Of a stretch of DNA of 64,000 nt, positions 4,385-45,892 are shown piece after piece. A model generated the notes under the pieces. That model was not told the DNA's origin. It saw nothing but the letters and a program-made list of their open reading frames with translations, and searched no databases. The stretch comes from Colius striatus (lineage: Eukaryota; Chordata; Aves; Coliiformes; Coliidae): contig NC_084771.1 in the NCBI RefSeq assembly GCF_028858725.1, positions 11,064,915-11,128,914 on the forward strand, given 5' to 3'. Made by a program: the position numbers and the translations under genes. Position 1 is the stretch's first letter. Each line of letters opens with the position of its first letter.

Positions 4385-7300
4385 ATGGCCACCACAACGG
4401 GGTTTGCAGCCGTCTTCTACAGCGAACCCGCCGTGCTGGGGCTCCTCGCCAACGTGGTCAGCGCCTTCCTGCTCTGCCTGCAGAACCTGGCCGTGGTGCA
4501 CAGCGGCCTCAGGCCGCAGGGAGCGGAGGATATCCTCGCAGGTGAGTGATGCTGCTGCTCAGAGATCAACTCTCCCCAAGAGACTCTTCAAGAGTCATCC
4601 CCATGGGCCAATAGATTGCATTGGTGGGACAGGCGGGGAAATGTGGGCCTCCTCCAATGTACAGGTCTGTGTGCTCCTTAGCATGGCTGCTCCTCCCTCC
4701 GCAGCAACTCTGAGAGGAATGTGGTCCAAACTTTCCATGTGCCATTCCTTCATAGGTCCAGAGGACTCCTGGACTTGCTCCCCATGCTGAGCATACCAAG
4801 AGGCTCAATGGCCACACACTAACTATACTTTCAGTATAGACATTTGTATGAAGGAAGGTGGGAAGAGAGGAGAAGACAGAGGCCATAAGGCTGGTCAAAG
4901 AAGGCTGTAGGATCGGTGGTGCAGTGTGCCCCAGAGCTTGGAGACACAGCATTGCTTCCTGCAACTCAAGCCTTTTTGTGGTTTGCTTCCTACCTGACCT
5001 TTTCATGTGTCTCTCAGGTGTCCACCTCATCCTGATTGGAGGCCTTGTCCAGCTCCTGGCAGGATTTCTTGCCTTCCGGAAGTATGACCACCTTGGAGGA
5101 GCAGCTTTTCTGACCTTCTCTGCTCTGTGGAGTAGCTACGGGGCCACACGCATCATTGTGGCCACCTACCCCTCCCTGCAGAACCTAACACTGTCCCCAG
5201 GGAACAGCAGCCACCTCCTGCCCGCCGGCCTCGCCCACCTCTCTGCCAGCCAGAGTGCCGTGGCTGGGCTGGTGGCCTACATTTCCATTTCCTTTATCCT
5301 CTCCTTCTGCTCAGCCACGGTGAACTACATCATGCCCTTCATCTTCGGGGCCATCGGGTTGGCCCTGGTGTTTGAAGCAGTCGCACTGTTTGGCCAGTGG
5401 GCCCTGGTAGTGTCAGGTGTCATTGAGCTTGTCATTGTCCTGTGCGGGCTGTATGGAGCGGTGGCTCTCCTGCTCAAGGGCATCACGCAACGGTACGTTC
5501 TTCCAGGCTTTGGGCACCCTCTCTTCAATGTCTTGCTACTGGGGTCAGCACAGAAGAGCAATTCCAAGGCCATTGGGGAAGAAAAGAGGAAGAACACGAA
5601 GTACGCCGAGCCGATGGCCCTCGGCAACATCTGCGATACCATCTCTCCCTTTCTATTTGCCTTTTACTTCTTTGGGTACATGAAGAGCTTCTGTGTGGGA
5701 GCAGCGTGGATATCCGTCATCTCCAGCTGCCAGCTGCTGTCCAGCTTCTACAGTTATCTGAGAGGTGATGTCTACTACACTACCAAGTTTGGTGTCCACA
5801 GCCTGTACTGGTTGGTGATGTCTTGGGAAGAGTTTACACTCACCACCTTCCTCGGGCTGCCCAAGGCTCAGGAAAGCAGGCCGGGAATGTTTGGAGGGTG
5901 GTTCTTCCTGGCCATTGCCTGCATGCTCTTTCTGATGTCAGCCCACAAAGATGTCCTGGAGATGCTGCAAAATGCCTCCTTCATCATCCTCACCACCGCC
6001 TCCCTCCACCAGATCCCTGTGCCAGGTGCTTACCTGTTCCTTGGGGCTGCCTGCAGCCTCTGCGTTGCTCTCTCCATGTATGCCACTTTTGCCAGCCTTA
6101 TCAATTCCATTGGGGAGAAGGTTCTGATTCCAGTTGGTGTCCAGGCAATGTCCAGCTCAGCTCTTCAGACCACGCTGATGGCTGCCAAAACCTTCTTCAC
6201 AAGGTCCAAGAACGTCGCAAGCGGAACCAGTGCTGAAGTGCCAGATGCTCTGTTCTACATCTGCAACGGCCTGGCTGCAGCCTCTGCCATCCAGGCTACT
6301 GTCAGGGACCCCAGCAGGCAGCAGCTCTCCATACCCTCTGTGCTCATCCCAGGAGCCATAATGCAGCTGTATGTCTGCAGAATCCAGGTTCAAGGAGGGA
6401 GGAGGTTTGGTTGCATCCTTCCCTTCTGCTATGCTGCCTTCTGGGGAGCGTGGACCTGGCTGAGGTTTGCAGGTAAGGGAGGGTCAGAGTTACTGGTTTG
6501 CTAGCTCAGAAAAAAGGATGTTCTTAGGAGATTTCATCTCTCTTTCTGCAGATTTCCTTCTCCCAGGTGATTCAATGACACCAGGTTTACCAACATTCCT
6601 CCTTGTAAAAAGATAATGACCAAACAGTCCAGCTTATTTTCATGTCATTGAGTGCCATTGCTGCAGTTCACTTACTACTCTCACAGCTACAGGAGCCTAA
6701 GTTGTGTCTTCTGCTCCAACAGAGGCCAAGATTTCCCTGATAAACTATTGTCAGACAGCACTCAGATTGTCTCCAAGTCTCTACCTCAGAGTAACAGTTC
6801 AGGTGAGGCTTTTCAGGCAATGGAAGTTTCAGAGTCTGAATTTCTCCTACAGAAAGCTGGAACAATTCATCTTAGTTGATCACAGCCATAAAAGAAGTTC
6901 TCAAAATGATGAGCCTGGGCTTTAAAAAGCCTTCTTTAGCTCCAGGTGAGCAGCATGCTCATAGGGCCTCCCTGCCAGGTCCTATTAAAATGAGCACCTG
7001 TGGGGAAAGTTAAAGCTATTGCTTAAGAGGCATGGCAAGAAGCTATGAATGTTCTCAGCTAGACCCTGTTTATTACGAGCTGGGGGTAAAATCATCAGCT
7101 TTTTTTTGGCTAAGCATCACCAGTTGTTCAGTTTCTCCTCCAAATGATTTGCATTGCAGAAACAGCCTGTTTCCATGCAGTAGGTTTTCTTTGTAGTGAC
7201 CACCACCAATTCCTTTGAAGCACAGCCATCCCAGCTGCAGGGATGCCCTTCTGTTACGCTGCGCCTCACGGTTTGCTCACAACCAAATCTGCTCTCCTAT

Positions 7301-10300
7301 TTCAGGCCACTTGCTGAACATGAGTGTGGGGAACAGTGAAGGATTCAGTGCTGGTTCTATTGCCTTTCTGGTGCTCAATGCTTTTTTAATCATTTTAGGT
7401 AAGTCTCGGGGCCATATGTGACTGAGAGGTGTTTGGGGTCAGGTCATTAGATTATTTATTGCATCTGGGGTTACTCTCTGTAGAGATGCACAAGTGAGGG
7501 AGATTCAGAGCTTTCTGATTAAGCAAGAACTGAAATGTTTTGCCCACAGCCAGTAACAGAAGCTGGGTTGGAAGAAGAAACAGTCACAAGGGAATGGAAG
7601 AACATTTCAAAGAAAATAAAAGGTTCAAATAAGGTGAAAATGTTAGATGGACTGAGCCATTGGCATATGTCCACAGTCACCCTCCAGCCCAGCTGCTGTA
7701 AATCAGAATCTTGTTGGCTGCCTGAGAAGTGTTTTCCATGTGAGCAAAGTGTACTGGCAGATCAAGGGTTTGGCATCTTGTCTTTTGAAAGCTGAGGGCT
7801 GAACAAACCATAGCCCTACCTCTCTGTTCCTCCATGAACAGCAAAGCCAGATCACGGACTGTTCACTTTAATCAAATAAGATTAAGTTGATTTGCAAACT
7901 CTTCTGCTGTTTCAGGTACATTTTTATGAGCCACTCTCTGATGTCAGTCCCTCTTGTTCCTATTTCTTTTCACAGCTTCCTCTTTTAACGTGGTGCTTCT
8001 CTGTATGACCATTGCAACGGAGCTCTTGACAGTTTGTTTTCTGCTCTTTACATTGGAGAACCTCCCTTTGCTGTTTGAAAGTGAGTTTTAGGCGAACCTT
8101 AGTCTTCAAACCTTCACTCACAGAGTGCAGAGAGAGGGTCTCTTGTTGGGGAGCAATGTTCTACACAGGCTCAATGTGGATAAAAGGAAGCAGAAGAGTG
8201 TGTCATCTTTCCCTAGAAGACTTGTGTGTGTGCAAGCTGCAAATGCTGAGCCTTTCAGTTCCATGACTAGAGGAGGAAACCTTTCCTCATATCATCCTCA
8301 GGTCCTTGAGCTTTCTAATAAGCATCTAGGCACAACTGGTACTACTGAATCAAGACAAACTCCCAAGGTTCTGTACAGTCCTGCTTTCTAGTAGCTATTC
8401 AGTGAGCTAAGATGTGAGACGAACTAAACGTGCCACCTCTGTGAAAGGCTGTAGCTCTGTTGAAGCTTTGGCTTTGCAGCAAGTGAGAGTTTTATTTGCA
8501 ATTACACAGAGTGTTTTAGCAAGATGCTTTGTAGAAGCTACTCCACTAGGAAACCAAAACAAAAATAAAAGCCCTATGGCAAAAGATGCCCAGGTAGGAA
8601 AGCCTGGAAATGCCCTGGATTTTTAGACCCACAAATATGCTGGACTGCAAATGGTGCATGACAGGAAAAACTGAAGTAAGTTTGCAATGCTGGGAAGGCA
8701 TGAGGCATAGGAGAAAATTAAACTTTGCCATCACCCTTCCTGCCTCTGACTCTCTGGGTTGTTTTGTTTTTCCAGTTGTGACGCTGAGCATCTTCAGCAT
8801 CATCTGCTTCTATGGAGCAACAGCATCGCTTGCAAACAGCATGTTTGGGAAGGATCTTATGATGATGGGACCCCCTCTGCTCACAGTAAGAGATTTTTTT
8901 TACATGAGGCTGTAGCTTCCCTGGTCAGGAGGGATATCCTGGGGGCTTTGGTCTTACCTAGGGGAGTTCACATTGCCACTGACTGTCCTTCCTTTGAATC
9001 CCTTAGTACCATTCAAAACCCCAGTCACAGCACTTCTGTAAGGACCTATGAACTGAACACAAGGTGTCTTCCATTCTGCAGAACACATGTGGAAACTTGG
9101 AGAAAGGGCATTTACAAAACTCTTGCCTTGCTCCAGAATGCCTGTATCTTTGGTCCTGTGGAATTAGCCACCTCCAGTCCAAGAATTACTGACAGGCTAA
9201 AGTTTCAAAGGCCATAACCTTGGGGTGAGGGAAGTAAGGAGTGAAAAATTTCCCAAAGTGGATAGCAAGAGCTCCTCACTGTATCTCTTAACTTTAAGCA
9301 TTTTCTGCCAAGACCTTATCTGACCAAGGCTGTTCCATCTCCCTGGGTTGATTGATCTGACAGCTCTAATCCCTGCTACAGGGAAACATTTTCATGAAAT
9401 CCACGTTCCTGACCATGGAGACTCATGATAAAGAACTCAAAACTTTATCTTACTCAAGTTTCTCTAGATTTAAGATTGCCTAGCAGTTTCCTCAGAACAT
9501 TTTGGAGAGCAGTTATTTCTCCAGGAAGCAATCACTGTGCTGGGTGAGATTAATCTGCTGTAAATTTAGGCAGCAGCAGGTCGAATGTCCACACCTGAGC
9601 TATTCTCTTTGACTTTATTGCTGAGATGGAATGAATGACTTTTGTCTTGCAATTCATCTCACCTCCTCTTAGGTGAAGCATCCCTAGTAGTCCCTCTGCC
9701 TTTTGAGCACAGCACAGTGAGATACCTGCATTGAATAGATTACAACACAATATATTGAATCCTACTTTGTGTTTCATATGTTTGCTTATAACCAACATAA
9801 TGGATTTGCCTTTTGATTACTGCCAGGCTGAGAGCTCTAAGAAGGACATTGATGATCCTCCACCCTGCATCTGCCCCAAGTCCCACTGTACAAGTGGCTT
9901 GAGGACCATTGCTGACTTGTTGAACACAGGAGCAGTATGTGGAGTCCCAACAGACACTGTGTATGCTTTGGCAGCCTCTTGCAGACACCCTCAAGCCATT
10001 GAGAAGATCTACCAAATCAAGGTGTGAAAATGAAGCTGTCATCGTGTCACTTGGATCCTGTTTGTGTCCTGTAGATGAGTTATGTGCAGAGGCAGAAATG
10101 GGATACTATTGTTTTAAGTTGCCTTAAGACTCAGAATTTGACCACAGAGAGAATTTATGAGCTGCCACAACAAAACATCATGCTTTCTGAGCTGAGCAAC
10201 CAGGGGTGAAACATCTTCTGCTCTGGGGTGGGAATTAGACAACTACCTCCTGCTTCAATGGGAGGGCAGAGCACAAACCCGAAGTGGAACAATGGGTCCA

Positions 10301-13234
10301 AACCTGTATTTGTCCTTTCTGTCTTACGAAGTGCTGAATCAGAATCCCAGGTTTAAAATTCCCCAGACTTCTGGAGACAGTGCTGGAATCAAACTCAAAG
10401 TTTGCACCTTCAATACAACTTTTGCAGCCTGGCCCTGTCTATTCTCCATGAGGCAATTTCCTGGCTAGCCTGGAGAAATAAGCATAACAGACTATCTCAG
10501 CTGGCAACTTAGTGTGAACATCAGCAACAAAGGCAGTCTTTTCTGTCCTGCTTCTGTGCCAATGTTAACCTTCCCTGTCGATGAGATAATATAAACAGAA
10601 TGTAAATACATGCCCAGTTCCTTAGTCATTTGGCCCCACTGAAACTGATGTCAGTTTAGGATTGAAATGACACCACTTTGTAAGCAATTTGTATTTTCCC
10701 TTCATGACACTGTTCATTTTGCAGTGAGTTTAGCACCAAAGAACAAAGTTTGTCATGTAGAATTGGGTTTGCATGGGGTTAGTCTCTCCTTCCATTATCC
10801 TGTTGTGAATTGGTGGGTCTGACCTTGATTTATACCAGCATTAAGTGAGAAAAAACTCAGACCCCTGGTGTGTAAGATGTTTAAACCACCCATAATGAGC
10901 AAACATCATTGTCCCTCTTGTTGTGTGTAAATCAGGGAATCTGGATGCATCCTACCAAGATCCTAAGAGCAGACCCCTGTTCTCTCTCTTCTTCAATCTG
11001 CACATGGAGATTTGAGCATTCGGTGCCATCCTGTGCTCAGTACTTTGTGCAGAGACAGTATCTTGTTTGCTTGGAGCTCCTGGTCCCTGGGAAACAAACA
11101 AACTGGGATTCCAGTGGGCTCTGACCTTCTCAATGCAAACTTTCTCCCATCATTTATTTCTTTCTCTTCCTGGTTTTTGCAGGACAGGCCTCAGGAGAAG
11201 CCCATCTGCATCTTTATTTCAAACCTGGACCAACTTCGAGCAGCTGCTCCCCCCATCAGCCCCCTGCTTTGGGAATTCATGGAGAATGTTTACCCAGGTG
11301 GCATTGGCTGCATTATCCAGAAAGGAGAGTGGCTTAAGAAGTTAGGTGAGATGAACAGGACAGTCCTTCTCTCCCTCTTTTGTGTTTTCAATACAGCAGG
11401 TCTGCAACTCACTCACCTTTTTGAATATCAATGGGGAGTGATTCTGTCCAGAGAAGTGTCTCTGGAGCTCTTAAATGCTTGGCAAAGGGTGTTAATAGGC
11501 TGGAATGGGACAGTGTGACCCAGTGTGATGATTTTCTTAAACCAATCAGACTGGGCAGGGAGCCTCATCAGTTTGGAGGGTCACCTCTTCAGAGACTTTA
11601 GCAGTTAGCTGGGAATGAGCAACCCCTGGGTGGAGCATCAAAGACAGAACAGTTCTCTGGGGTGGGACTGGGTTCCCATGGGCATCCCTTCACCTCTTCC
11701 GTCCTGCCATATGGACAAAGTCAAAACAGTGTGAGCAGCAGCATGATTCATGCTCAAACCTGACTTCTGGGACTCAACAAAAACATTATGGACTAAGAAA
11801 GAGTAGGAGTGATACGTTTGATGGGCAGTGGTGTGTGTCAGAGGATGGGAGGGCAGGCAATGCTCATAAGTTTGACTCTGAGATAAAGGTAGATCCTATG
11901 TCCATGAAGGCAGCTATGCTGATCTTCAGCCACTGATCTTCACCTTTTATAGTCAGTCCCAAACTTACAGCTGCTCTTGTTGATTTTGTTTGGGATGTAG
12001 AGCAGCTTCTTGCAAAGAAAGCAGGAGGTCTCCCTCTGATGCCACACCAGGTATGGTGCCAGTCTGCCTCTCACAACATTCTCTATCTGTCATTCAAGGG
12101 GTTGGAGCAGGCTACAGCAGAGTGGGAACTCAAGACAGCATCATGATCAGAGTGCCTGACCTGACTGTCCTGGTGCACCTTATTGACATGACAGGACCTC
12201 TGGCAATCACATCTGCTAATCCCAGTGGAGAGGTTGATAGCACACACCACGACATGGTCATCTCGTGAGTAACTCCTTTACTGTGCAAACCACATGCCAG
12301 GTGGCTGGCCAGCAAGTTTATGTGGTGTATAGACCATGCTTTTCTGCCCTGCACTCAGGGGAACTTCAGCACAATGAAACATGAAGTACAGTGTAGTGTT
12401 GTTGCTTTTTTTTTCCCCTACAGGCGTCTTGGCCATAAACTGGAGGGTGTTCTCTGTGATGGAGAATCTGATGAGGTGGTGGCATCCACTGTGGTCAACT
12501 GCACAAAGTTTGATGAAAGTGAGTGTAAGAACCACCCTTTCTATGTCAGCAATTACATTTTCCTGGGATGTTTTCATTCCTTTCAATAATGGCAATCTGG
12601 CAGCACAGTGTGCTCCAAGAGTAACAGTTCTCAAATGCCCGGACACTTGCAAACGTGTTGATGAAGAGGAACAAACAAAAGATGTCCTTGGAGGACCTCT
12701 GTGTTGACAGAGAACAAGGCAGTGAGGAGAAACATGGTTGTGCAAGCAAAATCTGCCTCATAAGAGCAAAACATGCTCTAAGTGTGAGGGTGGTTGCTTC
12801 TGAAAGGAAGGGAGTATACTCCTTGTAGACCACCAGAATGAAGATGTTACAGGAGCTCATCCACAGTGATGTAACAACACAAGCTGAGGTGTCATTAGCT
12901 GGATCTGGGTTGTCATTTGAGTGGGACTCAGTAGTGGAAAACGAAACTCTTGAACACAGTGTGGGGTTCAATGTTGGTAGGTGTTTGTGATTTGTGACAG
13001 TTTCTGGCCCTTTTGCTACCCAACTTTATTATTTGGATGTCCTGAGCATTCCAATGGCTTTACTGGTTCAAGATATTCCTTTATACCCCCATCCCTTGCT
13101 TTTGCCCTCGGAGTATTATCCTAACTTTGACATTCTTCCCCTGGGAAGGTGGCATTACCATCATGCGAGAAGGCTGCATCCCAGCAGGCAAAGTGATGCA
13201 GATATTTGAAAGAGTGAAGAACAGAGCAGTCTGA
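4385..13234 (+). CDS. Gene A: triple AceTr-like membrane protein fused to a YrdC/Sua5 domain
   Basis: Ten coding exons: 4385-4541, 5018-6472, 7306-7398, 7976-8080, 8776-8885, 9827-10021, 11183-11345, 12099-12264, 12424-12518 and 13149-13234, giving 874 aa. Every junction keeps the frame. Residues 1-640 are mostly hydrophobic segments, perhaps 15-18 helices. They resemble three AceTr (GPR1/FUN34/SatP acetate transporter) units: YSEPAVLGLL at 12-21 with QLLAGFLAF at 64-72; YAEPMALGN at 248-256; and a third from about 461 with QLYVCRIQVQGGRRFG at 502-516. A Cys/His-containing linker (CICPKSHC, 654-661) leads to a YrdC-like domain from about 664 to the end. This has PTDTVY at 681-686, IKDRP at 704-708 (K705 and R707 are the KxR pair) and TSANPSG at 797-803. 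YrdC/Sua5 enzymes make threonylcarbamoyl-AMP for tRNA t6A. Activity or sensing here is unproven. The YrdC call is strong, and the AceTr call is by motif reading only. Confidence 0.85.
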
Positions 13235-17286: not shown

Positions 17287-17648
17287 GAGGTTTCTGGGGC
17301 TGTTTAGCCTGGAGAAAAGAAGGCTCAGAGGAGACCTCACTCTCTACAATCACCTGAAAAGAAGCTGTAGCGAGACAGGGGTCAGTCTGTTCTCCCTAGT
17401 AACAAGCAATAGAACAAGAGAAAAAAGCCTCAAGTTGCACCAGGGGAGATTCAGGCTGGATCTGAGGAGGAATTTCTTTACTGCAAGGGTTGTCAGGCAT
17501 TGGAAGGGGCTGCCCAGGGAGGTGCTGGAGGGTTTCAGAGATGGGTGGATGTTGCACTGAGGGAAATGGTCTCGTGGTTGATAGGGCTGGGACAAAGGCT
17601 GCACTCCATGAGCTTAAAGGTCTCTTCCAGCTGAAACTATTCTGTGAA
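17287..17648 (+). repeat. CR1 LINE fragment
   Basis: This is the CR1 3' region in plus orientation. It includes the stretch around GGGGCTGTTTAGCCTGGAGA, the body around GGCTGCCCAGGGAGGTGCTG and the end ATTCTGTGAATT. It is diverged and lacks the long 5' part, as most avian CR1 copies do. Confidence 0.85.
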
Positions 17649-25758: not shown

Positions 25759-28700
25759 TCAGAGGCGTGTGTGACTCTCACAGCCATCATCAGGGGACAG
25801 CGCCGGCACAGTCCCTTCCAAGGCAGCCATGGCTACCCCGTTGTGCACAGCATGGCCACGATTCAGATCTTCTTCCTGGCCTTTTGTGGTACAAGTGCCA
25901 CTGTTAAGCACCAATGTGTGTTTCTTCTGCACCTGCTCCAGTATCTGCAGCACCTGGAATTCACAAATGCAGCTGTGAGTGGGTTAGTAATTGAGAAGAG
26001 GCACTAATTTCTTCTTGAGCTGTTGAAATAATGCGCTACTTTCTTCCAAGCTACATGTCTGGACTCAGCCTTGGGATCACACTATGTGTTTCTGCCTGCT
26101 GAGAGGTCTCTGGGACAGGTGCAAATGGAGATCCTACTCCATGAAGGCCCACGGCCTTGGATCTCAGAGCTCTTTCAGCAAACGAGTCAGTGATACCTCA
26201 CACGTTCCTCAGCAACGTACTCAGCACACAGAGGTGCTGTGGTGGTCCAGAGGCACCATCAGGACTCAGACAACATGGAGCTGTGTTTGCCGGCTCTTTC
26301 ACACCTCCTGTGATAACTCCTCATACTATCACTTCTTTACACAACTAGGAAACCCTCAGGCTGACACTCAAAGGAGATGGAGAAAGGGAGCAGAAAGAAA
26401 ATCAAGGTGAATTTTACCTGAGACTTGGGGATGATTCCAACTCTGAAGAACCCGATGCTTCCACTGTCAATTTTGGTGCAGTCCACAACAGTGGAGGCAA
26501 TGTTCTCTGGAGAAGGCCCGTCACAAAGAACTGCATCCACCTGCAAAGCAGGAGATGTTCACATCAAATTCCCCTCAGACTCATGGGAAAGAACAGGGCA
26601 GTTTCCTCCTTCCACAGCAGGTAATTATTATCAAGGGCAACTCTGCTTCTTCCTGCCCCACTGTATAGACTCTAACCAAGAAAGACAGAGCTCTATGGGG
26701 TGTAGGTTAGGAGTACAGCACAGACAGGTTTACATCAGCTGAGGAGCTTTGAAGAAGCCCCATCCACACAGCAAATGTGTAGAAACCCAGATTTTTGAGG
26801 TGTGGAAGGTTTGTACCACCTCTTGTTTAAAACTCTCCTTCTCTAAGCTGCCACTGATGTACAAAATGCACAGCCAGGATTTAGCAGTGAAATGAAAGAC
26901 ATCCATTTAAATGGTCATGACCATTGTACTTCCTAAACTCACGAAAGTTCAAAAAGCTGGGTATATTTTGGAGCTTTGGCACTAGTTTTAGAGCAGCTTC
27001 AGCTTTAGAAGGGAATCCCCTGTGTTCTGACAGCTCAATGCCAGCTGGAGCCCCAGCACGTTCAGGCATCAGTGAGTTTATTGCTTGTAAGCAAAGAAGC
27101 ATTTGTTTTTTGGTTGCTCATCTCATTCTGTGTTGGAAGATGAACTAACTCACATTGCCAAGCCGTAACTATACTGTAGAAAACAGCAGAGTTTTGGGTT
27201 CTCACCAAGTTCTGTATTTCACACTGTAGGACACCAAGATGAAGAGTGTCCATGAGATTATTTTTTGAAGAGATGCTTTCCCAGGTTCATCTATTAGTTT
27301 GCCTACTGGAAAAACACATGGTTGCCTTCTTCCATCCCCACATCTTGAATGATCAGCTGGAATGAAAAGACACAGAGCCCAAATTACCTTATCTCCCAGC
27401 TTGGCATACACTTGGTTGTGGTGTGTGGTGTCTGCCTCTCCCGTTGGGTTAGCTGATGTGACCACAATGGGGCCAACCTGGTGACAGAGAAATGGGTATA
27501 AAAGCTCTGAGCAGGTTTTGTTGTATGACAGCATAAACAGATGACTTGAGTTCTTAAGTTCACTCATGAGTCTCTGTGTCTCTGAAGAGAACTCAGTATG
27601 ACTCACCCAGGCAGAGACAACTCTTTTGTAGGCAACTATAGGCCCACCAAATCTGTGAACAAGTGACTAACACTCTGCTGAATTGTGTTTACTGATGTTG
27701 GTCAGGAAAGAACATTTTTTTCCAGCAATAGCAACTGCCAGAGATCCAAAATGTCTGTCCTAAAGATGAGCAGAGCATGTAGGGTATCACAGTTCCGTGT
27801 TCTGGACCTTCTGAAGTTATTCTGGCTTCAGATAAGCCTGTGCTTACAACAAAACCGTTCCATATAGGAAATCAGACAAAGTGTCTGTTAATTGCATCTT
27901 TTCTGGCTTTCTGACCTGGTGGTTATTCCTTCTACCCTCTTTTCTGCAATAAAATCAGTTACCAACTGTCTGCATACCCCACCCCTTCTTAATGATATTT
28001 TTCTTGTGGGAGTTACTCATTTTAGCACTTTTCACTCCCCAAATCTGTCAGAACATGCTTGAATCCTCACTTCATAAAGAGGAAAGGTGACATGCCAAGG
28101 AGGCTGATAGAGTGCTCCAGCCTCTCACTATCCTTCTCTCCATCAGAGCAGAGGACCTGGGTGCTAGTGACTGACACCAAGCCTGCTCCTCAGGCAGTAG
28201 AACAGCAAGGTCTGGTTGCCAGTGCTTCTGAGCAGGGGTGAGTGGGCTCTGGACACTCACCAAGTCGATGAGGTGAGTGGTGACAGAGCAGTCAGGGATG
28301 CGGATGGCAACACTCTGAGGAGTGCCCACGTATTTAGCAGAGTCCTTCATTCCCAGGAAGTCCACCCATTCACCTGCAAAAGGAGGAGGTCACACAGCAC
28401 TCATGGATGCACATCAGTTCAATCATAGTGGTCTTACCAGAAGTATCACCACAGAACACACAGGTCTTATTGCAGGGATGTGTGACTTAAAGCTGGAGCT
28501 TCAAAGCCAAAGCTTTCCAGAGAGCTTGGAAGTAACAGCATTTCCTCACCTCTGGGAACCACCAAGCTAATAGGAGATGGCCAGGCAGCCTCCATGAAGT
28601 CCCAGAGGAGGGGAGTGAACAAATGCTTTGCAGGCTCCAGTTGTTTTAGGCTAGAAATCCAGAGTGACATGGGGCGATCCTGAGCCTGGCGCTTGGACCT

Positions 28701-31700
28701 GGAAAGGAGGTAAGAAAAATGAGCCTGGGAGTAAGATGGAGAATTACATTCAAGCTGAAAGGGGAATTGTGTTGGTGAGGCCTAGAGTTAAGACAAGGTG
28801 TGTAGTCTCCCTCAGGTCACCAGGCTGTTGTAAAAGTAGGACTGCACAAGAGATGACCTGACAGGAAAAGACATTAATGACTATTGCCAATCAGGAATCT
28901 CTACTACAAATCAAAGTCCCAACTGCCCCAGTCCTGAGCAAATCTCACCAACATGAAGGGTCCTGGCTGCTTCCAAAAGTACAGCTATAGGTATTTGTTA
29001 AACATGAGAGGGGTTTTGGTTGTGACAATAGGTACCTACAAATAAGCACAGTAACCCCCTGCTCAATTTACCACTTCTTTGGGTTCCCTTGTGATATTCA
29101 AGCTACCCATCTCCACTGCCTGCCCAGAGCCTTCAACATCCTGGAAGACAATTACAGCTCAACTGTCTCCGTATTCAGACCTTATCCCCCAGGCTCATCA
29201 CCTTGCTGTTCCCAAGAAGGCTCAGCTACATATCTCATTGCACTCAATGGTTGCTGTAGCCAGTACTCAGCAGCAGCTGCAAGTGCTAGAAGCTTCTTTG
29301 GAGCAGCCAAGGAAGCCCTCACTGGGGCAGCAAGGCAAATACTTACTGGTGAGCTTTCTCCACAGCATCAGGCCGATTACAGGCTGCCACAAGCACATAC
29401 ACAGTGTCCGTGGGGATGCCACAAGTCCCTCCACTCTTCAGGATATCTGTTGGCATGTGAACAGGGCAGAAACCCTTGAGTGACTAGAAGTGAGGGGCTG
29501 TAGTTCATGAAAGAGCTGTCACAGACCCAAAAGCCCACTTGGTGCTCTCATCTCCTTTTCCCAGCTAACAAAGCATTCCCTCTAACAGTGCATTTTCTAG
29601 CATTTATCCAAGAGGAGATCTGGCACTTAGGGCAGTTCTGGGCTATATTCATCAGGGCCAGAAGTCATTCAGCCCTGTGGAGACAGTAAGCACCATGCAT
29701 TTGCACTGATTTTTCTGTACAAAGCTTTCAGTGGTAGCCTTAGCCTGGAGGGTTCATGTATCTCAGGTTGGATGATCATACAGGGGTATCATACAGGAGA
29801 AACAGCAGCAGATCTACGGCTACACCCAGCCCCTATCAAGGGATTAGCCCTATTTCCCCCCATTTTCGGGTATTTAGCTTCTAATGGCTCTTGTAACTTG
29901 TCCCACTTCATCCAAATATCATCAGATTATCACAGTTTTCACATTTGGATTGGATCAATGTCTTTTTAATAGTGTCCTTCTACAAAATCTCCCAGAAACA
30001 CTCCCCCACACGCATGATGCCCTATGTATTTCCCTTACCTGCAATTCTCTTGACTGAGGAAGCTTTCCTGGCAGGCAGATGAAGGCACTTGCTCATTCCT
30101 CCCCCCACACCACTAAGCTGCACAATGGGCCTACCCATCGGTAAGCAGGAACCCTCAAAGATGCTGTTGAAAAGGGCAGAGAGGAAGCAGTAAAAGCTGA
30201 CCAGACCAAAGATGAGAGTGGCAGCAACATCATAGCCAGCAGGGAGAGCATGGAGGGCATCCAGCAAGAAGCTGACAGTGATGAGGAAGAAAGTGAGGGA
30301 GTAAAAGAACCAGGCCATGTTTAAGAAGAGAGTGCAGAAGACAATGAAGCCATTGAAGAGCATGAAAGCAATGATGCCTACCACTGCATGGAAGCTTCTG
30401 GTAGTGCCATAGAGGCCACCATATCTTGTCAAGCCCCAGATGATCCACATGACAGCATAGAGAATGAAGGCACTGCTCTCCAGGGTTTTACCCCGGGCAA
30501 AGGCCACTGAGCCACTTAGAAGCTTAAGGATTCCACCAGCTACCACCACCCATGGGATTACAACAGTAGCAAGTGGAGCCTTTGGGTCCCCTGTCATTGT
30601 TATAGCAAAAGAAGCGAGGACGCTGCAGGCATAGCCAAGTACTTCTGCATCTGCATACTTGGAATACCCTAGATAGGGAGCATGGAGGTCTGCCCCTTCA
30701 CGAAGCTTCACAAAACTGCTGCGAGCAAGAAGAGCCTTCACAGCAGCCTTCCCTGTTGGGATCTTGGCACTTGCTTTCTCATTGTAGAGGTGAACTAGAG
30801 TCATCAAGGCTGAAGCCACAAAAATGGCCACATCCACACCTTGGGGTCCACCTTCAAAAAATCCCTTGGGACTGCAAGATAATGCAATGCAATAGGCCAC
30901 ATAAAAGAGCAAATTCAGGCCATCCATTGGGCTTTGAAGAGCAAGAAAAAGAGACAAAACAAGAAAAAGAATAGAGAAAACCACCAGAAAAGGAGTAGGG
31001 AAAGATGGCACCTCTGGTTGCCAGACTGGGTACAGGAGGCAATAGCCCCCAGCAAATTTCAGGATGGAAGTGAAACCAAAGAATGTAGCCATTAGTACAT
31101 CCATGGCACGGTATGATAAAATGCAGATGCCAATCTGGTAGATCCCAGCTGCCCACAGCCAGGGCACTTGCCCCAGAAACAGTTTGTCAGTGATGCCCAG
31201 GAGCCTACAGCCAAAGACACTGGCAGACAACATGTTCAGGATCAAACCGGTGACTGCAAAATGATTTGTGCTGCCACTGGTGGATTTGATCTGTTCACGG
31301 GTCTTTGTCTTGGCCAGATCTGTGCCAGGGAGGGCAACTTTCTCTTTGGTTAGGAAATAAAGAATCCTCCCCAGAGCAAAATAACCACCAACCAAGCAGA
31401 CAATCATATAGTTGCAAGCTACAGCAGAGGAAGTGAAAGCTGTGCTGTAATGCACGGCAACTTCATGAGCACTGGCAAGTGAGACAGCAGAAGCAATCAT
31501 AGCTAGGATGACCTCTCTGCAAAGGAAGCCCACCACTGCAACAATGAGTAGTGCCACAGTAAATGTGACCAGGCCAGGCACCAAGGCATTGCGGAAATCA
31601 CCGGTGTCATTCAAAACTCCTTGCCCTCCCAGGATGAAAACCACTCCATAGCCACACCACAACACTGAGATGGTCAGGCAGAGAGACAAGAACAGGGAGG

Positions 31701-33740
31701 CATTTCTTAGGCTTCTTCGAATTCCTGTGAAACAAATGACAGAGGAGACAGAGGTGTGATGTGGAGGCAGTGGGTTATGGAAAGCAGTAGGTAGGACAGG
31801 CAGATATGTGCTGGAGGTATGATCACCACACTAGCATGGAGCTGCACAGGTTCTGCATGATGCTAGCAGAGCTATCTTGAGTTTGGGTAGGTCTGCATTG
31901 TGTCCCATAGACATGACTGTAAAGTTACCATCAGAACAACACTTTGGGTTCATCAGAGTGGCTGAGTTGAGCTCAAAGTACTTGTGTTCCTTCAACTCAG
32001 CACTGTGCCAGGCCTGGCACACAAGGTGTCCTAAAGAAGTCAAGGTTCAGCAAGCCATTGTCTTACCTTCCTCATGATGTCTACTAGACTCAATAACAAG
32101 ACCATAATACATTAACCCAAACCAAGTCCTGACACCTGAAAGCTTCTTTCCAAGCTGGAGCTCTACCATGGACCTATGCTTTGTTTCTTGCTCAAACTGA
32201 TACAGCCTTGTAAGCCAGACTCAAGTTGGGAAGGGAAAAAAAGGCTCTGCTGAATGAGTCCCCAAGCTCCAGAGGACTGCATGTATCTCTTGGAAGAAGG
32301 GAGTGTAGAAACACCTGCCTTTGGTAAGAGGTTGTTGATTCCCACCAGCTGTCAAACACCACCTGCCCAGTGGTCCATTCCATACAGTCCCATCAATAGA
32401 GACACTTTTATGAGCCTTATACTAACACTTTGTGCCACCACTGACGGAGAGAAGACATGGACTTAAGTTTTCCAGGTTAAAATACATAGTGGCTCTCCCA
32501 AGCTTCTGCATCAAATCCTGGGTTTTCCTGTACTTGTTGCTCCAATTAAAAAGGGAAAATTACTCTGCATTCATTCTGGAAATGAATATATGGAGACATG
32601 ATGTATTCAGTCTGTTAAAACCCTAAGAGATCCTGGTAAAGCATTTGTTCCAAACCAGCATGGATTTCTTTTGTTGCCTACAGAGGAAAAAGATTGCTGT
32701 GCTGACATACTCCTCTAGGAGAATGAATTGGTGAGGCTGCAAATGGTTTGTATAACCCTGTTGGTAAAGCAGATCAAATAAATGCAAAGCTATAGAAGGA
32801 GGAGGCCTTGCAGCTGGCCACCCTCAGAGTCTTACCTGCATACGCCAAAAGAGATGATAAAATCAACAGAAGGACTCCCAGAACTGTGCTGGGGATCAGA
32901 GGAGCTGCTCGGGGTAAGCTGTAGAAATGCACTGCCAGTAAGAGTGAGCCTGTATGTGACAAAGGGAAAAAAGGAAGAGCTTGTAAATTTTGCCTAAAAA
33001 GCCAGGAGAGAACCCTGCAAGAGCAGGGAACAGAAAAAAATAACAGTACAAGGTCTGCAGAGTGAAATCCAAGGAGCTGGGGGGCTATGTTGTAACTTTG
33101 TTTGTGTCCAAGGTCTCATCTCTTTCTGGGTGCCCAGTTTTAAGAAACTTGAACTTAATCATGTTTGAAAGTGCTCCCCTGTTATCTGACAAAGGTGAAA
33201 ACCAGCTCTGTGATTCCAGCTACACAAAAGTCAGCCAGCCAGCATGCACACCCTACAGATGATCACACAAGCCTCATGCCTACAGAACACTAGGCTGAAA
33301 ATGAAACGGGGCAGCACCCTGGAAGATGAAATACAAAGAAGCAGCAAATGAAAGGGAGTGAGCACAGGTGACAGAGCTGCAGGGAAAATGGTTAGAAAAG
33401 TGCATCCAAATAAAGATCATTTATGAAAATGACTACCAAAAAGTTTTGATTTGCTTCCCACTCAGGACGGATCGAGTACAAAAGTTCAGGCCAGCACTTT
33501 AAAGCCAAGACAAACATTTTGTTGGCTGCTGAAACAGTCACAGGGTTCTCCAGATCTAAAAGCTTTACCCAGGCAGAGAAGATTCAGGATAAACAAGACT
33601 CTTTAGCCCCCTTCGAAAAGGGGGTTGTCCATGAAAGTCCCAACCCCATCCTCCTGTGCCAAGAAGACTCGATCCCTACCTGCGGAAATGCCCAAGAGCC
33701 CTATGGAGGAATGCAGTGACTCAGCTTTTCTGTCTGCCAT
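25759..33740 (-). CDS. Gene B: paralogue of gene A, triple AceTr-like membrane protein fused to a YrdC-like domain
   Basis: Nine coding exons in transcript order: 33740-33680, 32949-32836, 31724-30039, 29446-29347, 28698-28550, 28373-28261, 27477-27388, 26540-26418 and 25953-25759, giving 876 aa. Phases agree throughout. Residues 1-620 are a multi-pass membrane region, mostly in one 1,686-base exon. The third unit is the clearest AceTr match: YADAEVLGY at 415-423, GGILKLLSGSVAFARGKTLE at 455-474, and LPMGRP at 586-591. The C-terminal domain carries PTDTVY at 632-637, SKRQ at 655-658 where gene A has IKDR, TSANPTG at 748-754, and IASTVVD at 785-791. The Arg of the canonical KxR is replaced by Gln, so catalysis is doubtful. 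A 53-residue hydrophilic tail after VLQILEQVQKK is absent from gene A. The start ATG sits about 60 bases after a minus-strand TATA box. Confidence 0.85.
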
Positions 33741-36548: not shown

Positions 36549-36620
36549 CCTCCAGGCAGTGAACAGAGAGGCACAGGAATTTGAGGCTCTCCAGGGACAG
36601 CTCCTGCTCTGGCTGTGACC

Positions 36621-39385
36621 ATGGGGAAGAGAGTGGCTGTGGTGCTGGCTGGATGTGGGGTGTACGATGGTAGTGAGATCCACGAGGCTTCTGCTGTGCT
36701 GGTGCATCTCAGCAGGGAGGGGGCACAGGTAAGATGCACCCTGGCCACATTTTGAGCTCCTTTAACTCTGCTTTGCTTTTCATTCTCTCTCTTGCAGAAA
36801 GTACTTGTCTATAAGGAGCTTTGCAGCTTGCCAGACAGATCACAAGCTCCTCTTGGCTCCTAGAGTAATTACAAAGCCCAAGTGACTGGAGTCAAAGCAA
36901 ACAGTGGAGTGTAGGAGCTGCTGCAGTGAGCGGGGAGAACTCTCTGGTCCCTGCTTTGCTCTCACAGCTTTTGCTGGATGAGAGGATCGGCTTTGTGCTC
37001 TCTGTTGAGTGTACCCAAACTCTGAAACAAATTTCCATGAATGCATTCTCTATTCTTTTTTTTTGGCTTGCATCTGCTCTTTTCTGCTTTGGTATTTCTG
37101 TTTAAAGGACTATTGTTTTGGGTTGTTTGAAATTCATCTCTTTCTTTAAATCTTCCAAGATTAGAGTTGAAAATAGGCAACTTCTTGTGAGCTGAACTTG
37201 AATACAGATAAAAAAGGCAACCCTCAAGTACCCACCATTAGTCACAACAGCCACTCTGTGAGACTGGAAGCGGAGGGAGAGAAGCCTTTTTTAACATTAC
37301 CCCCAGCTCTGAGCCACCCACAAATCTGGATCAGAGCCAGAATTGGAACTGCTCAATGAAATAAAAAAGAACAGTACTGATATACATCACAGTAGTGATG
37401 TGCACCAGCCCACCCATTTCCAAAGCCTCCCAAGTGTCCATTCTCTGTTTGGCTTAAAGCTTAGACTTGTCCAAACTTTTTCTCCACTGTGTCTAATTTT
37501 TCCTCTTCTTCTCTTCTGGAGCTGCTGCAGCTTCTTCCCTCCTGCCCTGAATTGGCAGTACCATCCTCTCTCATCCCTTGATCAACAGGGACCTCTAGTG
37601 AAGGAAACTCAGGCGTAATTTCAAATCCCTCCTTTTATTTATTGGTTACGCTTGCCCGAGGAAACAAAGAATAGAACAGAACAGAATAGAATAGGAGTAG
37701 AGTAGAAGGATAAGAGAACTCTCCCCTTCCTCCTCAGGCAGAGGTTTATGCTCCTAATGTTGAGCAGATGCATGTGGTGGACCATGTGAAAGGACAGCCA
37801 ACTCAGGAGAAGCGCAACGTGCTGGTTGAAAGTGCCAGAATAGCCAGAGGCAACATCAAGGATCTCGCTACGTTGGATGTCAAGGAGCTGGATGCCCTAA
37901 TCATCCCAGGTAGGAGGGGGTGTGGGGTCTGCATGCCCAAGGTCTTGGGAACCGCTTAAATATGCCATAACTTGAATGACGTGGGGAGTCATGGGCTGGA
38001 GAGGAACTTGGCAAGAAGACAGAAGGCTGGAAGCAGAGCTTGGAAGGACAGATCTTCCATCTACAGTAGTATTGGTATGCTAGCTTGGACTTACATGAGA
38101 AGAGCACATAGCAATGCAGCAGCTTATCCCAAAAGCAGAGGGCAGACAACTGTTTACTGAATGTAAATCTATCTCCTCCCTCACCTACATGCCTACTTCC
38201 TTATCAGGAGGAGCTGGGACATAGAGGAGGGTGACTCAAAAGCAGGAAGCCTGGTCAGTCAGGCATTTTATCCTTAGTGGAAGTATGACCACATGACTTC
38301 AGTGGAAATGGACTAGGCCTGCAGGAAGGATTAAGAGACAAGTGAAAACTTGCCAGCATATTCCACCATAATTCAGAAGAGAGCTCATAGGTGAAACACA
38401 GTACCCAACACAACACTGATACCTCTCCAGTTCTGTATAGAAGCAAGAAAAGTGTTTTGAGACGTCTCATCTCCTGGCAGTCAGCTCACAAAGGTTCATA
38501 TGCTGTCATCCACCAAATCCATTTTAGCATTCTACCAAGTAATAACTGAAAAAACTACTGCCCTAGAGTACTAATCTGGTCTAATCTATTTCTGTTTTCT
38601 CAGGTGGTTTTGGAGTGGCTAAAAACCTGAGTACTTGGGCTACCCAAGGCAAGAACTGTGTCATCTCCAAAGAGGTGGAGGATGTTCTGAAGGCATTTCA
38701 TGCTGCCAAAAAGCCCATTGGCCTGTGTTGCATCTCCCCAGTGCTGGCAGCCAAAATCTTCCCAGGCTGTGAGCTGACTGTAGGTCACGACACAGAGTGT
38801 GAGAAGTAAGTAATCTTGGAGTGCTGATAGGGAAGGAACTATGATGGCTTGTGCTACACAGGGATAGGAGTAACGTCACTTGTAGGAAAGTGGCAAAAAC
38901 ACCCCAAACAAACCTAAATACCAAGTCTGGAGTGGGTAGAGTTTAGTAGTGGAACATCAAGGTCATTGGGCTTTACTTCTGCTTTTTAACTCACTGTAAT
39001 CTGGAGGTTCTCCTGGTTCTATAGTCCTGGAGAAACTCCTCTGGCAGGAAAAGATTTGGATCCTGTTGAGCAGGCTTTCTGTAGGGACTATCCATCTCTG
39101 CAATCAACAGACTTCTCATTCTAGGCCTTTGTCAAATCACTGTGTGTAATGACTGCTTCCCCACACAGGTTTATTGTCTTTTCCTCTTGCAGGTGGCCTT
39201 ATGCAAAGACTGCTGAGACCATGAAGGAATTGGGTTGCAAGCACATCAACAAACACGTCACTGAAACTCATGTGGATGCAAAGAACAAGCTGGTGACCAC
39301 CAGCGCCTTCATGTGCAATGCCCCCATCCACCAGATCCACGACGGCATTGGAAAAATGGTCAAAGAAGTGGTCAGCCTTGCCTGA
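36621..39385 (+). CDS. GATD3: GATD3/ES1-family protein (DJ-1/PfpI superfamily)
   Basis: Four exons, 36621-36728, 37738-37909, 38604-38805 and 39193-39385, give 224 aa that match the ES1/GATD3 family along their whole length. Family marks are [20 protein letters not shown] near the N-terminus, [20 protein letters not shown] in exon 2, the nucleophile elbow [14 protein letters not shown] at 131-144 (C135 and C136), and [15 protein letters not shown] in the last exon. The human protein is mitochondrial, about 268 aa, with a transit peptide. Here the ATG lies directly at the conserved core, 80 bases after a TATA box, and no presequence is encoded. The product may therefore be cytosolic, or an upstream exon was missed. 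In zebrafish an ES1 protein is known from cone mitochondria. The human GATD3 locus is on chromosome 21, away from CETN2, so this may be a paralogue and the symbol is given at family level. Confidence 0.9.
37668..37713 (+). repeat. Simple repeat, AGAATAGAACAG-like, in intron 1 of the GATD3-family gene
   Basis: Repeated GAATA, GAACA and GTAGA units run for about 45 bases, just upstream of the exon 2 acceptor at 37737. Confidence 0.7.
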
Positions 39386-41627: not shown

Positions 41628-44600
41628 TCAGTAAAGGCTGGTCTTCTTCATGATCCGCAGGAATTCTTGCTCGTTCACTTCCCCATCCCCATCTCTATCT
41701 GCTTCATCAATCATTTCCTGGAAGATATTTGTATTCAGAAATTAGATGCAGATTAGACTAGGATTGAAATTATTACAGTAATTCACAATGAGAACCACTT
41801 TATAGTAAATTGGATTGGAGGGGACAGTGTTAGATCTACTGTGCTACAAATTATTTACTAAACTAGTTAGTAACATGATTTTATATATATTTATAGAAAA
41901 ATCCACATGGGAAATGTTGTATGATAGGAACTCTGCTGGAAGAAACAAAAAGCTTAGGGCAGAATTGTTTCTTTTACATCACAGGAACTTGATAAAACTG
42001 TGATCCTGCTGATGCAATTTCAACAGCCACCTCTGACCTCAGAGCCCATTTCCCAATCCAAGGTGGCAGAAGCTGTGGCAGACTTCCTATTCTAATGGGC
42101 AAAGCATCACCTGGCCCCTTCTGTGTTCACAAACACAAAGGCAGAGAGCAAGTGTTTGTGTATGACAGGGTTTCATACCCCAGGAACACACCTGCAGCTC
42201 TTCATCCGTGAGATTTTCCCCCAGTTCTTTGGCAACACGTTTGAGGTTTTTGAAAGAGATTTTGCCAGTTTCATCATCATCAAAGAGTTTGAAAGCTTTG
42301 AGAATCTCCTCTTTGGAATCTTTTTCAGCCTTAAAGAAGTAAGCATGGGTTTAAGGAAAAAGAGTAGTGCTTATGTTGTAGGTAACACTCAAAACACAGT
42401 TATAAAAGACAAGCATTAGAGACCAAGAAGCTCTCTTAAGAGCAAGTTTCAAGCAGCCCAGCCAGCAGGAAGTGTATGTACAAAAGCTGAAGGCAGTGAC
42501 AGTGATGCTTCCTGAACCTCAGGCTTCCAGGCATATTTTTTTCCTTTTGTCACTAGCCAGATGTATTTGGGATTTCAGCACCAGTATCTTCCACTGTTAA
42601 ATATCTGCTTTCACTCAGCATTTGAAGGTTGTAAGATTTTTCAGACCAGAGATTCCACCTGTAACTATCTTAAAACCCAGGAAAAGAAAATACAGTGCAT
42701 TGCTGCCCAGACATCCATGTCACGTGTCAACACTCCCACCAGCTTCCTGTAGCCAGGGCTGGTTTCCATCTGCAATAAACACCTTGATTTCAGTTTTCAC
42801 AAACACACAGTTGATTGATGAAGAAACTTGTTAATGACATAATTATTTCAACATTACCTTCAAAAATCAGGTAGTCCCTGTGTTGCCATTCTAACTTCTA
42901 GATATTTTGTTGTTAAGATTAAAATAGTGACCTCAACTTCCACAAAAACCAAAAGGAGATGAAAAGTGCTCAGCCATTTGCAAACTGCTTTCACTTTGAC
43001 TTTTAAAATCCCCATACCATTCTCTGGGTCATCACTGCCAAGAAGTCATTGAAGCTGATTTTTCCTGTTCCTTCCTTATCGATATCTGATATCATTTTCT
43101 TGATCTCTTCTTTTTTAGGTTCAAAGCCTAGTGCTCTCATGGCCACCTGCAAGGACAAACTCAATTTATACACCATACAAAGCTATAAACAAAACAATGG
43201 TGAAGTTGAACTTTATGCCATATCATGTTAAAACATTCATTCTGTGTTTTAAGAAAAAATAGAAGGTAAGGGGCAGACTTGGAGCAATGTTTCTTCACAC
43301 ACAAGGGCATATCAAGATGTAGGAAACAGGAATGCAACTCTTCCTGTTCTGGAGTTGTCCTTCAGTTAAATCAGAAACTTCCTAAACACACTCTTACCCT
43401 TGCACCCACTAACCCCTGCTTAGAACCAGTATGAATTTGGAGCATCTAACAGAAGTACTTTCCCTGAGAAAATCCGGATTCCTGTGTGACCTGATCTAGG
43501 TGAACCTGCTTTAGCAGGGGTGTTTGACTAGATAATTTCTAAAGGTCCCTTCCAAACCCTACCATTCTGTGATTCTAAGTGATTCCATGAAAGAAGTTTC
43601 TATCATACTTGCAACTCCACTGAACTCCAGCCACCCAATCTCATGGCCCAAACACAGAAGGTGTTGAGCTCAGAGACCACATGGGACTTCAATCAGTTAA
43701 TTTTTCATTCTAGTGACAAAAAAAAAAATCTTTTCTTCAATGGGAAAACACAATTCAAATACTTATATACCTCCATAAGCACACTCATGTACTCCTAGAA
43801 GCAGCTTATCTGAGGATGCCTTCACTTGGGGACATGTGCAGGTACTCCTACACACTTCTTCCTCCTTTGATAAAGGGACAAGTGGCAAGTTTGAAATCAA
43901 GTCTCCTCCCTGCAGTCTTAATTAATTAAGATATACAGCTAGTATATACAAAGGGTATGTTCTGAAAGCAAAAGAAGTCCCAATTTCTTGACTATTATCC
44001 TTTCCAAACAACAGGGGTGGGGAGGGACAGAAAATGCTTTCCAGTAAATAAAAACATGACGACAAATTACATTGGTGTGTGCCACAGCTTGGAGAACCAA
44101 ATTTGCAAAGCATGCAATCCTCAACAACAGATAGGAGAGGGAAAAAAACCCTTCACATTTTTAATATGCACAACCTGTTCTTGATGTTTTACTAACAGAG
44201 AAGGAGATAGTATGGAAAACACAGACCTATCTATGTCTTTTGGCCAACCCAGCCCTAAGGAAACCTGATAACAGCTGTAAAGAGCTACAATGACAGAGAA
44301 AAATGTACCTGGTGACAAGAGAAGGGAGGACCTGGAATTTCTCTCTGCCTTTTTAAGGTCATTTAGGATTTTGTGCTTTATTACCTTAGTAGAACTGTAC
44401 TTTTTAGCACTAGGAACATTCTTACCTTTAGCTCTTTAACATCTATGTTCCCGGTTCCGTCTGTGTCAAACAGGTCGAAAGCCTCCCGGACCTCCTGCCT
44501 CTGCTCCTCAGTCAGCTCCAGCTTAGGACTCGCCTTCTTCCTCTGGCACGCGGCTCCTAGCGAGGGCTTCTTAAAGCTGGAGGCCTTGGCACAGCAACAC

Positions 44601-44824
44601 AAGAGCAAAGGAGGATCAGGCCGCGACGGACCGCTCCTGGAAGGCCGGGTGAGGCCCGTCGGGCCTCAGCCCCCAGCCCACACCGCGGCCGCTCCGGGCT
44701 GACCGGGGCCTCCCCCGCAGCCCCGTGACCGCGGCGCCGGGAAGCCAGAGGCAGCCGGAGGCCCGAGGCCGCCTCCCGCCGCCGGTGAGGGCGGTGTCAG
44801 GCCGGGACGCGCCGCACTCACCAT
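41628..44824 (-). CDS. CETN2: Centrin-2
   Basis: Five exons in transcript order: 44824-44822 (the ATG alone), 44584-44426, 43146-43018, 42329-42192 and 41717-41628. They give 172 aa, the same length as human CETN2. A variable basic N-terminus ([20 protein letters not shown]) precedes four EF-hands, with loops starting at D41, D77, D114 and D150. EF4 ([12 protein letters not shown]) and EF1 are textbook Ca2+ loops, and EF2 and EF3 are less acidic. The C-terminus is MKKTSLY as in the family. Centrin-2 acts at centrioles and basal bodies, in the XPC nucleotide-excision-repair complex and at nuclear pores (family knowledge). CETN1 is usually an intronless retrogene, while this gene has introns and lies beside NSDHL, which settles the identity. 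It shares a bidirectional promoter with NSDHL. Confidence 0.96.
43481..43575 (+). repeat. CR1 LINE 3' end in a CETN2 intron
   Basis: CR1 terminal segment in plus orientation, antisense to CETN2. It carries GTGACCTGATCTAGGTGAAC, the TTCTAAAGGTCCCTTCCAAA block and an ATTCTGTGATTCTA tail. Confidence 0.9.
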
Positions 44825-45260
44825 CCCGGTGGCCGGTGTTTTGCGGTGGCTTCAGTCCTGGCAGGGGCCGACGTTCAATGCTGCTCTTCCCCATTGGCTA
44901 ATGCTGCCACGCCGCTGCTGTGGCAACTACCCCTCCTATTGGGTGGAGCGCCGGGCGCGGGAGGCACTTAGGCGATAGCTATTGGCCAACACCTGTCCAG
45001 GGCGGGGCCAAGAGGTAACCGACCTGGGAGAAGGGACTCTCCTTCATCCGTCAATCCGATTGGCCAAAGGGAGGAAGCCGCAGGCCAATCAGCAAGCGGT
45101 ATGCGGCTAGCGCGATGCTCAGCCCAGGGCGCGCGGGAAGACAAGAGGCGGGAGGCGGTGGAGTGGGCGGGGCCTGTGGGAAGCTCCGCGCTGATTGGTG
45201 GGCGGGAGGGATGGGCGACCTGGAGCTGAGGGGCCGGGCCGGGCCGAGTCTGTGCGGTGA
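44825..45260. promoter_or_regulatory. Bidirectional CpG/CCAAT promoter of CETN2 and NSDHL
   Basis: This GC-rich, TATA-less stretch lies between the CETN2 ATG exon and the first probable NSDHL donor. It carries six CCAAT/ATTGG (NF-Y type) boxes, at 44893, 44938, 44981, 45059, 45085 and 45194, and GC boxes near 45001 and 45164. NF-Y commonly works with SREBP on sterol-synthesis genes, which fits NSDHL. No clear sterol response element was picked out by eye. The GC-rich island also extends left into CETN2 intron 1, to about 44590. Confidence 0.75.
45210..45256 (+). other. Possible non-coding first exon of NSDHL
   Basis: GC-rich sequence ends at a strong donor, TGCG|GTGAGT, with GT at 45257. It lies on the correct strand at the edge of the island, and the next probable exon starts at 46184. 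The start is approximate. Confidence 0.4.
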
Positions 45261-45459
45261 GTGGGCAGGGCCGGGCCCGGGGGCGGGGGGAGGAACAGAG
45301 CCTGCAGGGCCGTGAGGAGAGCTGCCGTGTGGGGTAGGTTGTGGGGACTGCGGAGCTGAGGGGTGGGCGTAGGGGCGGGTAAGGGAGGCTGTGAGGGAAC
45401 GTGAGGTAGGTTGTGGGGAGGGAGAGCGGGGCTGAGGGAGGCTTCGGGGATGTGAGGAG

Positions 45460-45702: not shown

Positions 45703-45892
45703 CTCTGCCCTGATGAACAAAACAAGCAGTACAAGAGTAACTGTAGTATCAAATAACTTTCTCAAAGGCATAATTTCAGTATCATAAAATGCTCCTGATA
45801 ACAAGGGCACCATTTATTTTACCTAGTATTAGCTTCATGCTCTTTCTTTAAGTCTGAATATTTACACTCCAAACAACAAGAAGACTCACCTC

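Follow-up and report, generated by a model that had tools for sequence, protein, structure and literature searches.

Two linked genes of Colius striatus join a membrane part of SatP/AceTr type to a YrdC domain

Does a single bird gene join a multi-pass membrane protein to a YrdC/Sua5 domain and, if it does, what might such a protein do? The question is raised by 64,000 nucleotides of the Colius striatus genome (contig NC_084771.1; this whole stretch is called here the window), in which a sequence-only reading had claimed a continuous ten-exon frame with the YrdC motifs PTDTVY, KxR and TSANPSG intact. We rebuilt this gene, hereafter gene 1, as ten exons on the plus strand that form a single frame from ATG at 4385 to TGA at 13234. 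Every intron is of the GT...AG type, the phases are compatible and the product has 874 residues, as the claim required; the three motifs are likewise in place, at residues 681-686 (PTDTVY), 705-707 (KDR) and 797-803 (TSANPSG).

The start codon and the first helix of AceTr repeat 1 (TM1; residues 7-40 in the structural model of a 92% identical orthologue) are encoded by exon 1 (4385..4541). Exon 2 (5018..6472) holds the remainder of repeat 1 (to residue 213, about 5499), the whole of repeat 2 (residues 250-418, about 5608-6114) and the start of repeat 3, which continues through exons 3 (7306..7398) and 4 (7976..8080). The final membrane helix (to residue 627) and the beginning of a linker lie in exon 5 (8776..8885), and exon 6 (9827..10021) encodes the disordered linker, the start of the YrdC domain and PTDTVY, with T682 at 9950-9952 and K705 at 10019-10021. 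The K-x-R motif is interrupted by the following intron, its arginine R707 (11186-11188) falling in exon 7 (11183..11345). The rest of the YrdC domain is spread over exon 8 (12099..12264; TSANPSG with S798 at 12212-12214 and N800 at 12218-12220), exon 9 (12424..12518; STV with S836 at 12485-12487) and exon 10 (13149..13234), which carries R853 (13166-13168) and the stop codon.

Both Pfam families that the sequence-only reading had proposed searching for score above their gathering thresholds in the 874-residue protein. Sua5_yciO_yrdC (PF01300) covers residues 671-855 (E 8.7e-35; 120.2 bits against a cut-off of 25.1) and Gpr1_Fun34_YaaH (PF01184) has its best stretch at residues 13-206 (E 1.2e-6; 28.8 against 25); no other Pfam domain appears at E up to 1. 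These matches are not due to chance. For the membrane part, the structural model of the orthologue predicts 18 helices in three groups of six, with the six-helix SatP fold. The proposed fusion of a multi-pass membrane protein to a YrdC domain holds. Repeats 2 and 3 are strongly similar and repeats 1 and 3 weakly so (0.034); plain BLAST between the two halves of the membrane part gives no match. The linker at residues 642-660 has pLDDT below 50 in the orthologue model.

The same architecture was looked for in other vertebrates, as the earlier reading had advised. A search with the gene 1 protein gave 300 matches, and the best 120 of these include full-length fused relatives from sharks to birds, as well as platypus. 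Nine bird proteins (P0001, P0002, P0003, P0005-P0008, P0012 and P0014) have exactly 874 residues and align with 100% of the query, and bird relatives are 84-92% identical among the matches listed that cover at least 99% of it. At the same coverage of at least 99%, identities of 56-76% are found among the best 120 of 300 in turtle, lizards, platypus, caecilians, newts, frogs, lungfish, ray-finned fish, sharks and chimaera; the coelacanth relative in this set is 61% identical over 94%. Six further full-length fused relatives of 867-887 residues (P0039, P0055, P0056, P0060, P0096 and P0120) come from a source marked 'lgn', which we take to be spliced-transcript assemblies. Their longest contigs (2.9-3.5 kb) are too short for introns of the size found in gene 1, and we therefore read them as spliced transcripts carrying the fusion, which is indirect evidence that a fused mRNA exists in relatives. 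Many bird relatives, as well as P0069 and P0157, are mislabelled in the database as spectrin beta chain, centrin-2, YRDC protein or SUA5 synthase; in the case of centrin-2, the name may stem from read-through out of an adjacent gene.

The window also holds a complete paralogue, gene 2, which was spotted by tblastn of gene 1 against the window and then modelled as nine exons on the minus strand, from 33740 to 25759, encoding 876 residues. Exon 1 (33680..33740) carries the start codon and is followed by exon 2 (32836..32949) and by exon 3 (30039..31724), which encodes the bulk of the membrane helices. The YrdC domain starts in exon 4 (29347..29446), with PTDTVY, and extends through exons 5 (28550..28698), 6 (28261..28373), 7 (27388..27477; TSANPTG) and 8 (26418..26540); exon 9 (25759..25953) gives the C-terminal tail and the stop codon. 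The two proteins are 29% identical (238 of 814 alignment columns). Gene 2 has a Pfam YrdC match at E 3.7e-33 and a PF01184 match of 16.6 bits, under the gathering score of 25; its protein matches the Colius striatus entry P0241 with 100% identity across 93% of its length. The two genes lie tail to tail, 12.5 kb apart. Elsewhere on the plus strand, a codon-bias scan picked out exons of an ES1/ElbB-family gene at 36594-39382 (exon 38603-38767 matches PDB 1oy1, E 5e-12) and an open exon of 98 residues at 55006-55299, with weak Pfam and PDB matches, which we recognised by eye as, presumably, the C-terminus of NSDHL. A G+C-rich island at 44600-45600 (GC 0.572 in the bin 44001-46000) is possibly the promoter of a downstream plus-strand gene. 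A short open stretch at 17413-17560 (+) is probably repeat-derived, being of a type that we assume to be common in bird transcript and repeat annotations.

Gene-2-type relatives, read from the best 120 of 419 matches to the gene 2 protein, are mainly from birds, with others from crocodilians, turtles, geckos and other lizards, caecilians, newt, coelacanth, sturgeon and platypus; these 120 include none labelled as shark, frog or teleost. In 12 species, picked by eye as cases rather than as a rate, gene-1-type and gene-2-type proteins are located on contigs of identical size, and in Phrynocephalus the locus tags of the two types are consecutive. The gene pair is thus an old linked arrangement. 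Platypus (Ornithorhynchus anatinus) has both types, P0026 (872 residues, 67% identity) and P0350 (878 residues, 65%), on contigs of one size, and no therian mammal is named among the best 120 of 300 gene-1 and the best 120 of 419 gene-2 matches.

As a kind, the channel-YrdC fusion is already published. Ghasemi et al. (iScience, 22 June 2026, PMC13316224) describe vertebrate ATO proteins of about 900 residues with three Gpr1/Fun34/YaaH repeats, a C-terminal Sua5/YciO/YrdC domain in almost all sequences, two vertebrate clades in their tree and a distribution over all major vertebrate lineages other than mammals; in their proposed model two protomers build a six-domain ring, and function is left open. 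Gene 1 resembles these proteins, which in fish bear the name si:ch211-153b23.3, in length, in its three repeats and in its C-terminal YrdC domain. The window carries two such genes of different type, and we infer that gene-1 and gene-2 types are the two published clades. However, platypus retains both paralogues, so that the published exception of mammals fails for monotremes. The words catalytic, KxR, linkage, platypus and monotreme do not occur in the main text of that article. Our literature search found no further paper on the channel-YrdC family.

The membrane part looks derived from AceTr channels. SatP/AceTr channels (5ys3, 5zug; PF01184) lack three repeats per chain and a fused enzyme, and in gene 1 their signature NPAPLGL is replaced by EPAVLGL in repeat 1, EPMALGN in repeat 2 and VPDALFY in repeat 3. 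The glutamate of the altered signature is invariant among gene-1-type proteins (117 of 117 in repeat 1, 118 of 118 in repeat 2). Since substitutions within the signature impair yeast Ato1, as reported in PMC13316224, the cargo may differ from that of AceTr channels. The AceTr equivalog model NF038013 (cut-off 50) gave scores below its cut-off for three relatives scored in place of the window protein: 20.3 for P0001, 13.1 for P0026 and 36.7 for P0033. As to orientation, the loops assigned to the inside contain 17 Lys or Arg against 5 for those outside, with helix boundaries drawn manually, and the TM3-TM4 loop carries a glycosylation sequon in 115 of 118 gene-1-type rows (only 26 of 114 in the corresponding gene-2-type stretch). 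From the charges and this sequon we infer that the N-terminus and the YrdC domain are cytosolic.

Could the YrdC domain be an enzyme? In Pa-Sua5, ATP is bound by K56xR58 and S143xN145 and threonine by T33, S181 and R195 (PMC10321239). By alignment, these map to K705, R707, S798 and N800 (ATP) and to T682, S836 and R853 (threonine) of gene 1, in which the KxR/SxN tetrad is complete. The four ATP residues are kept in 118 gene-1-type sequences at every position with a letter; T682 gives way to Ser in 4 of 114, and 2 of 117 depart from R853. The threonine described as TsaC-specific (Thr138 in E. coli, PMC10321239) is present as T797 in all 118. With the seven residues and T797 kept, gene 1 appears competent as an enzyme of TsaC type, and activity is likely on sequence grounds. 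Gene-2-type proteins (n=114) keep six of the seven; at the R707 position they have Gln (108), His (3), Lys (2) or a gap (1), that is, Arg in none of 113 rows. In gene 2 itself, exon 5 reads SKRQAQDRP where gene 1 has IKDRPQEKP, so that the tetrad is broken (K-R-Q). The missing arginine makes gene 2 look like a binding or disarmed version.

A fold search with the YrdC domain matched TsaC/Sua5/YRDC and also YciO; HypF and TobZ matched more weakly. Gene 1 shares with the first group (PF01300) its fold and all seven substrate-binding residues, and differs in being membrane-tethered, in ending with the YrdC domain (no SUA5 domain) and in the Sua5 PGP loop, which is altered to PGG (PSP in gene 2); the gene-2 type differs further in its lost ATP arginine. 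The match to YciO in sequence is much weaker than that to Sua5 (E 0.0056 against 1.2e-16). With TIGR00057, the L-threonylcarbamoyladenylate synthase equivalog (cut-off 123.2), relatives alone were scored, giving 116.4 for P0001, 121.2 for P0026 and 128.3 for P0033. The interpretation offered by the earlier reading finds partial support. Among the chemistries that it suggested, the ATP type is in keeping with the conserved K705, R707, S798 and N800. The carbamoyl-phosphate type was rejected: HypF and TobZ carry a Kae1-type transferase domain (PMC9654439), whereas the gene 1 protein has no such carbamoyltransferase domain at E up to 1, and their folds match less well.

Where the YrdC domain came from was addressed with a tree of 48 rows, including 11 vertebrate YrdC-only entries chosen from 120 listed, bird ones left out. 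Ten of these cluster with fused proteins of the gene-1 type from their own or a related lineage and are likely partial models or late losses; the other, P0141 of Latimeria, belongs to the gene-1 clade but is not firmly placed within it and lies away from the fused protein of Latimeria. Furthermore, a hydrophobic stretch opens the YrdC-only entries P0138 and P0147. The tree lends no support to a fusion derived from an ancestral stand-alone vertebrate YrdC. Five stand-alone mollusc YrdC proteins (49-57% identity) group with the gene-1 clade at 88/87, in a tree whose very long outgroup branch warns of long-branch joining. Two snail proteins that stand alone and belong to this YrdC subfamily, P0154 (Pomacea; two matched stretches) and P0140 (Batillaria), have two YrdC copies, at least partial, per chain.

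A lead on function comes from fish, in which the name si:ch211-153b23.3 is borne by full-length fused proteins among the matches listed. It involves irg1l, a relative of irg1, which makes itaconate. Of six articles, among those searched, that mention zebrafish genes si:ch211-153b23.x, four (PMC8877790, PMC6980646, PMC11140123 and PMC9228135) mention irg1l as well, a gene found in 48 of the articles searched. The identity of irg1l to mouse irg1 is 62.1% (PMC3206475). Over 18 exposures, correlations with irg1l are 0.90 for 153b23.4, 0.88 for.3 and 0.86 for.5 (ranks 2, 4 and 5 of 62 genes); sult5a1 (0.91) and si:ch211-207n23.2 (0.90) are the other two at this level, after which the values drop to 0.62 (PMC8877790, Table 2). 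When the two strongest exposures are removed, the values become 0.85 (.4), 0.77 (.3) and 0.93 (.5), with hnrnpa0l (0.77) and tcp1 (0.71) close. As this table comprises only genes preselected as changed, the correlation shows co-regulation, not function. Elsewhere, irg1l, 153b23.4 and.5 adjoin one another in an infection heat map (PMC6980646), irg1l, 153b23.3 and.5 are hub genes of a single module (PMC11140123), and 153b23.4 and.5 are listed alongside irg1l (PMC9228135). The stickleback gene named.5 spans only about 1.4 kb. A catshark 'yrdc' transcript could not be assigned to the family; its authors dropped it for very low expression (PMC13188829). Our search found no paper linking the names threonylcarbamoyl-AMP synthase and cis-aconitate decarboxylase.

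The explanation that we favor, with chances that we judge evenly balanced, is a cytosol-facing domain of threonylcarbamoyl-AMP-synthase type mounted on a SatP-type channel ring that is probably composed of both paralogues. An even number of helices, positive charges inside and a sequon in an outside loop would put the YrdC domain in the cytosol, where that of gene 1 would work as an adenylate former, converting ATP, bicarbonate and an amino acid to threonylcarbamoyl-AMP or the analogue of a related amino acid. Less securely, two protomers, most likely one from each paralogue, might assemble, in the manner of the SatP hexamer, into a ring of six domains through which bicarbonate or a small carboxylate would pass; at the inner mouth of the ring, the enzyme might use the incoming substrate or signal its arrival. 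The gene 2 product would take part as an altered or catalytically inactive partner. That the fish genes are expressed together with irg1l points to an epithelial or inflammatory role, with itaconate-class carboxylates as candidate cargo. Channel-enzyme coupling, cargo and pairing of the paralogues are offered as hypotheses.

A sensor or gated channel is possible, if on the whole unlikely: the YrdC domain would bind a nucleotide and a small ligand without turnover and so gate the ring, gene 2 being a form that has already lost catalysis. The gene-2 type does keep its threonine pocket without the ATP arginine (113 of 113 rows with a letter), so that binding without turnover seems tolerated; the flexible linker between membrane part and YrdC domain and the match to the YciO fold also fit. 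However, the retention of all seven residues in the gene-1 type, with few exceptions, is hard to explain without turnover.

We find it quite improbable that the fusion supplements the small YRDC enzyme by making threonylcarbamoyl-AMP at a membrane for ordinary tRNA t6A, its channel supplying bicarbonate. Since vertebrates possess the small YRDC as well, t6A could do without the fusion; a membrane location is odd for a tRNA pathway, no therian is named among the matches read, and co-regulation with irg1l would be left unexplained. In its favor, the TsaC-type residues are in place, and YRDC uses threonine, ATP and CO2 or bicarbonate (PMC5951830). Hardly credible, finally, is a misjoining of two neighboring genes or a decayed copy, a reading that YrdC-only entries in several vertebrates might invite but that was rejected given the intact frame and splice sites, the second fused copy in the window, the contigs of about 3 kb encoding the whole fusion, the full-length fused relatives in sharks, bony fish, amphibians, reptiles, birds and platypus, and the YrdC-only entries themselves, ten of which group with fused proteins (that of Latimeria being unplaced in the gene-1 clade) while P0138 and P0147 start as a truncated fusion would. 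The gene 1 fusion is real and well conserved, and its identity is near certain.

A single chain combining a channel with an enzyme of threonylcarbamoyl-AMP type would characterize a vertebrate family for which the June 2026 paper is the only one we found. A complete and a disarmed enzyme copy, their linkage and the tie to irg1l together point to a short list of direct tests. In its most specific form, which we regard as a long shot, the favored explanation becomes an obligate pair, in which the complete enzyme of gene 1 and the disarmed copy of gene 2 would form a six-domain ring, switched on with irg1l in epithelia and coupling the transit of bicarbonate or an itaconate-class carboxylate to aminoacyl-carbamoyl-AMP formation. 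If true, this pair would serve vertebrate innate defence as an enzyme-coupled metabolite channel, lost in therians, with its gene-1 type retained all the way from sharks to platypus and both genes together present in lineages from sturgeon to platypus.
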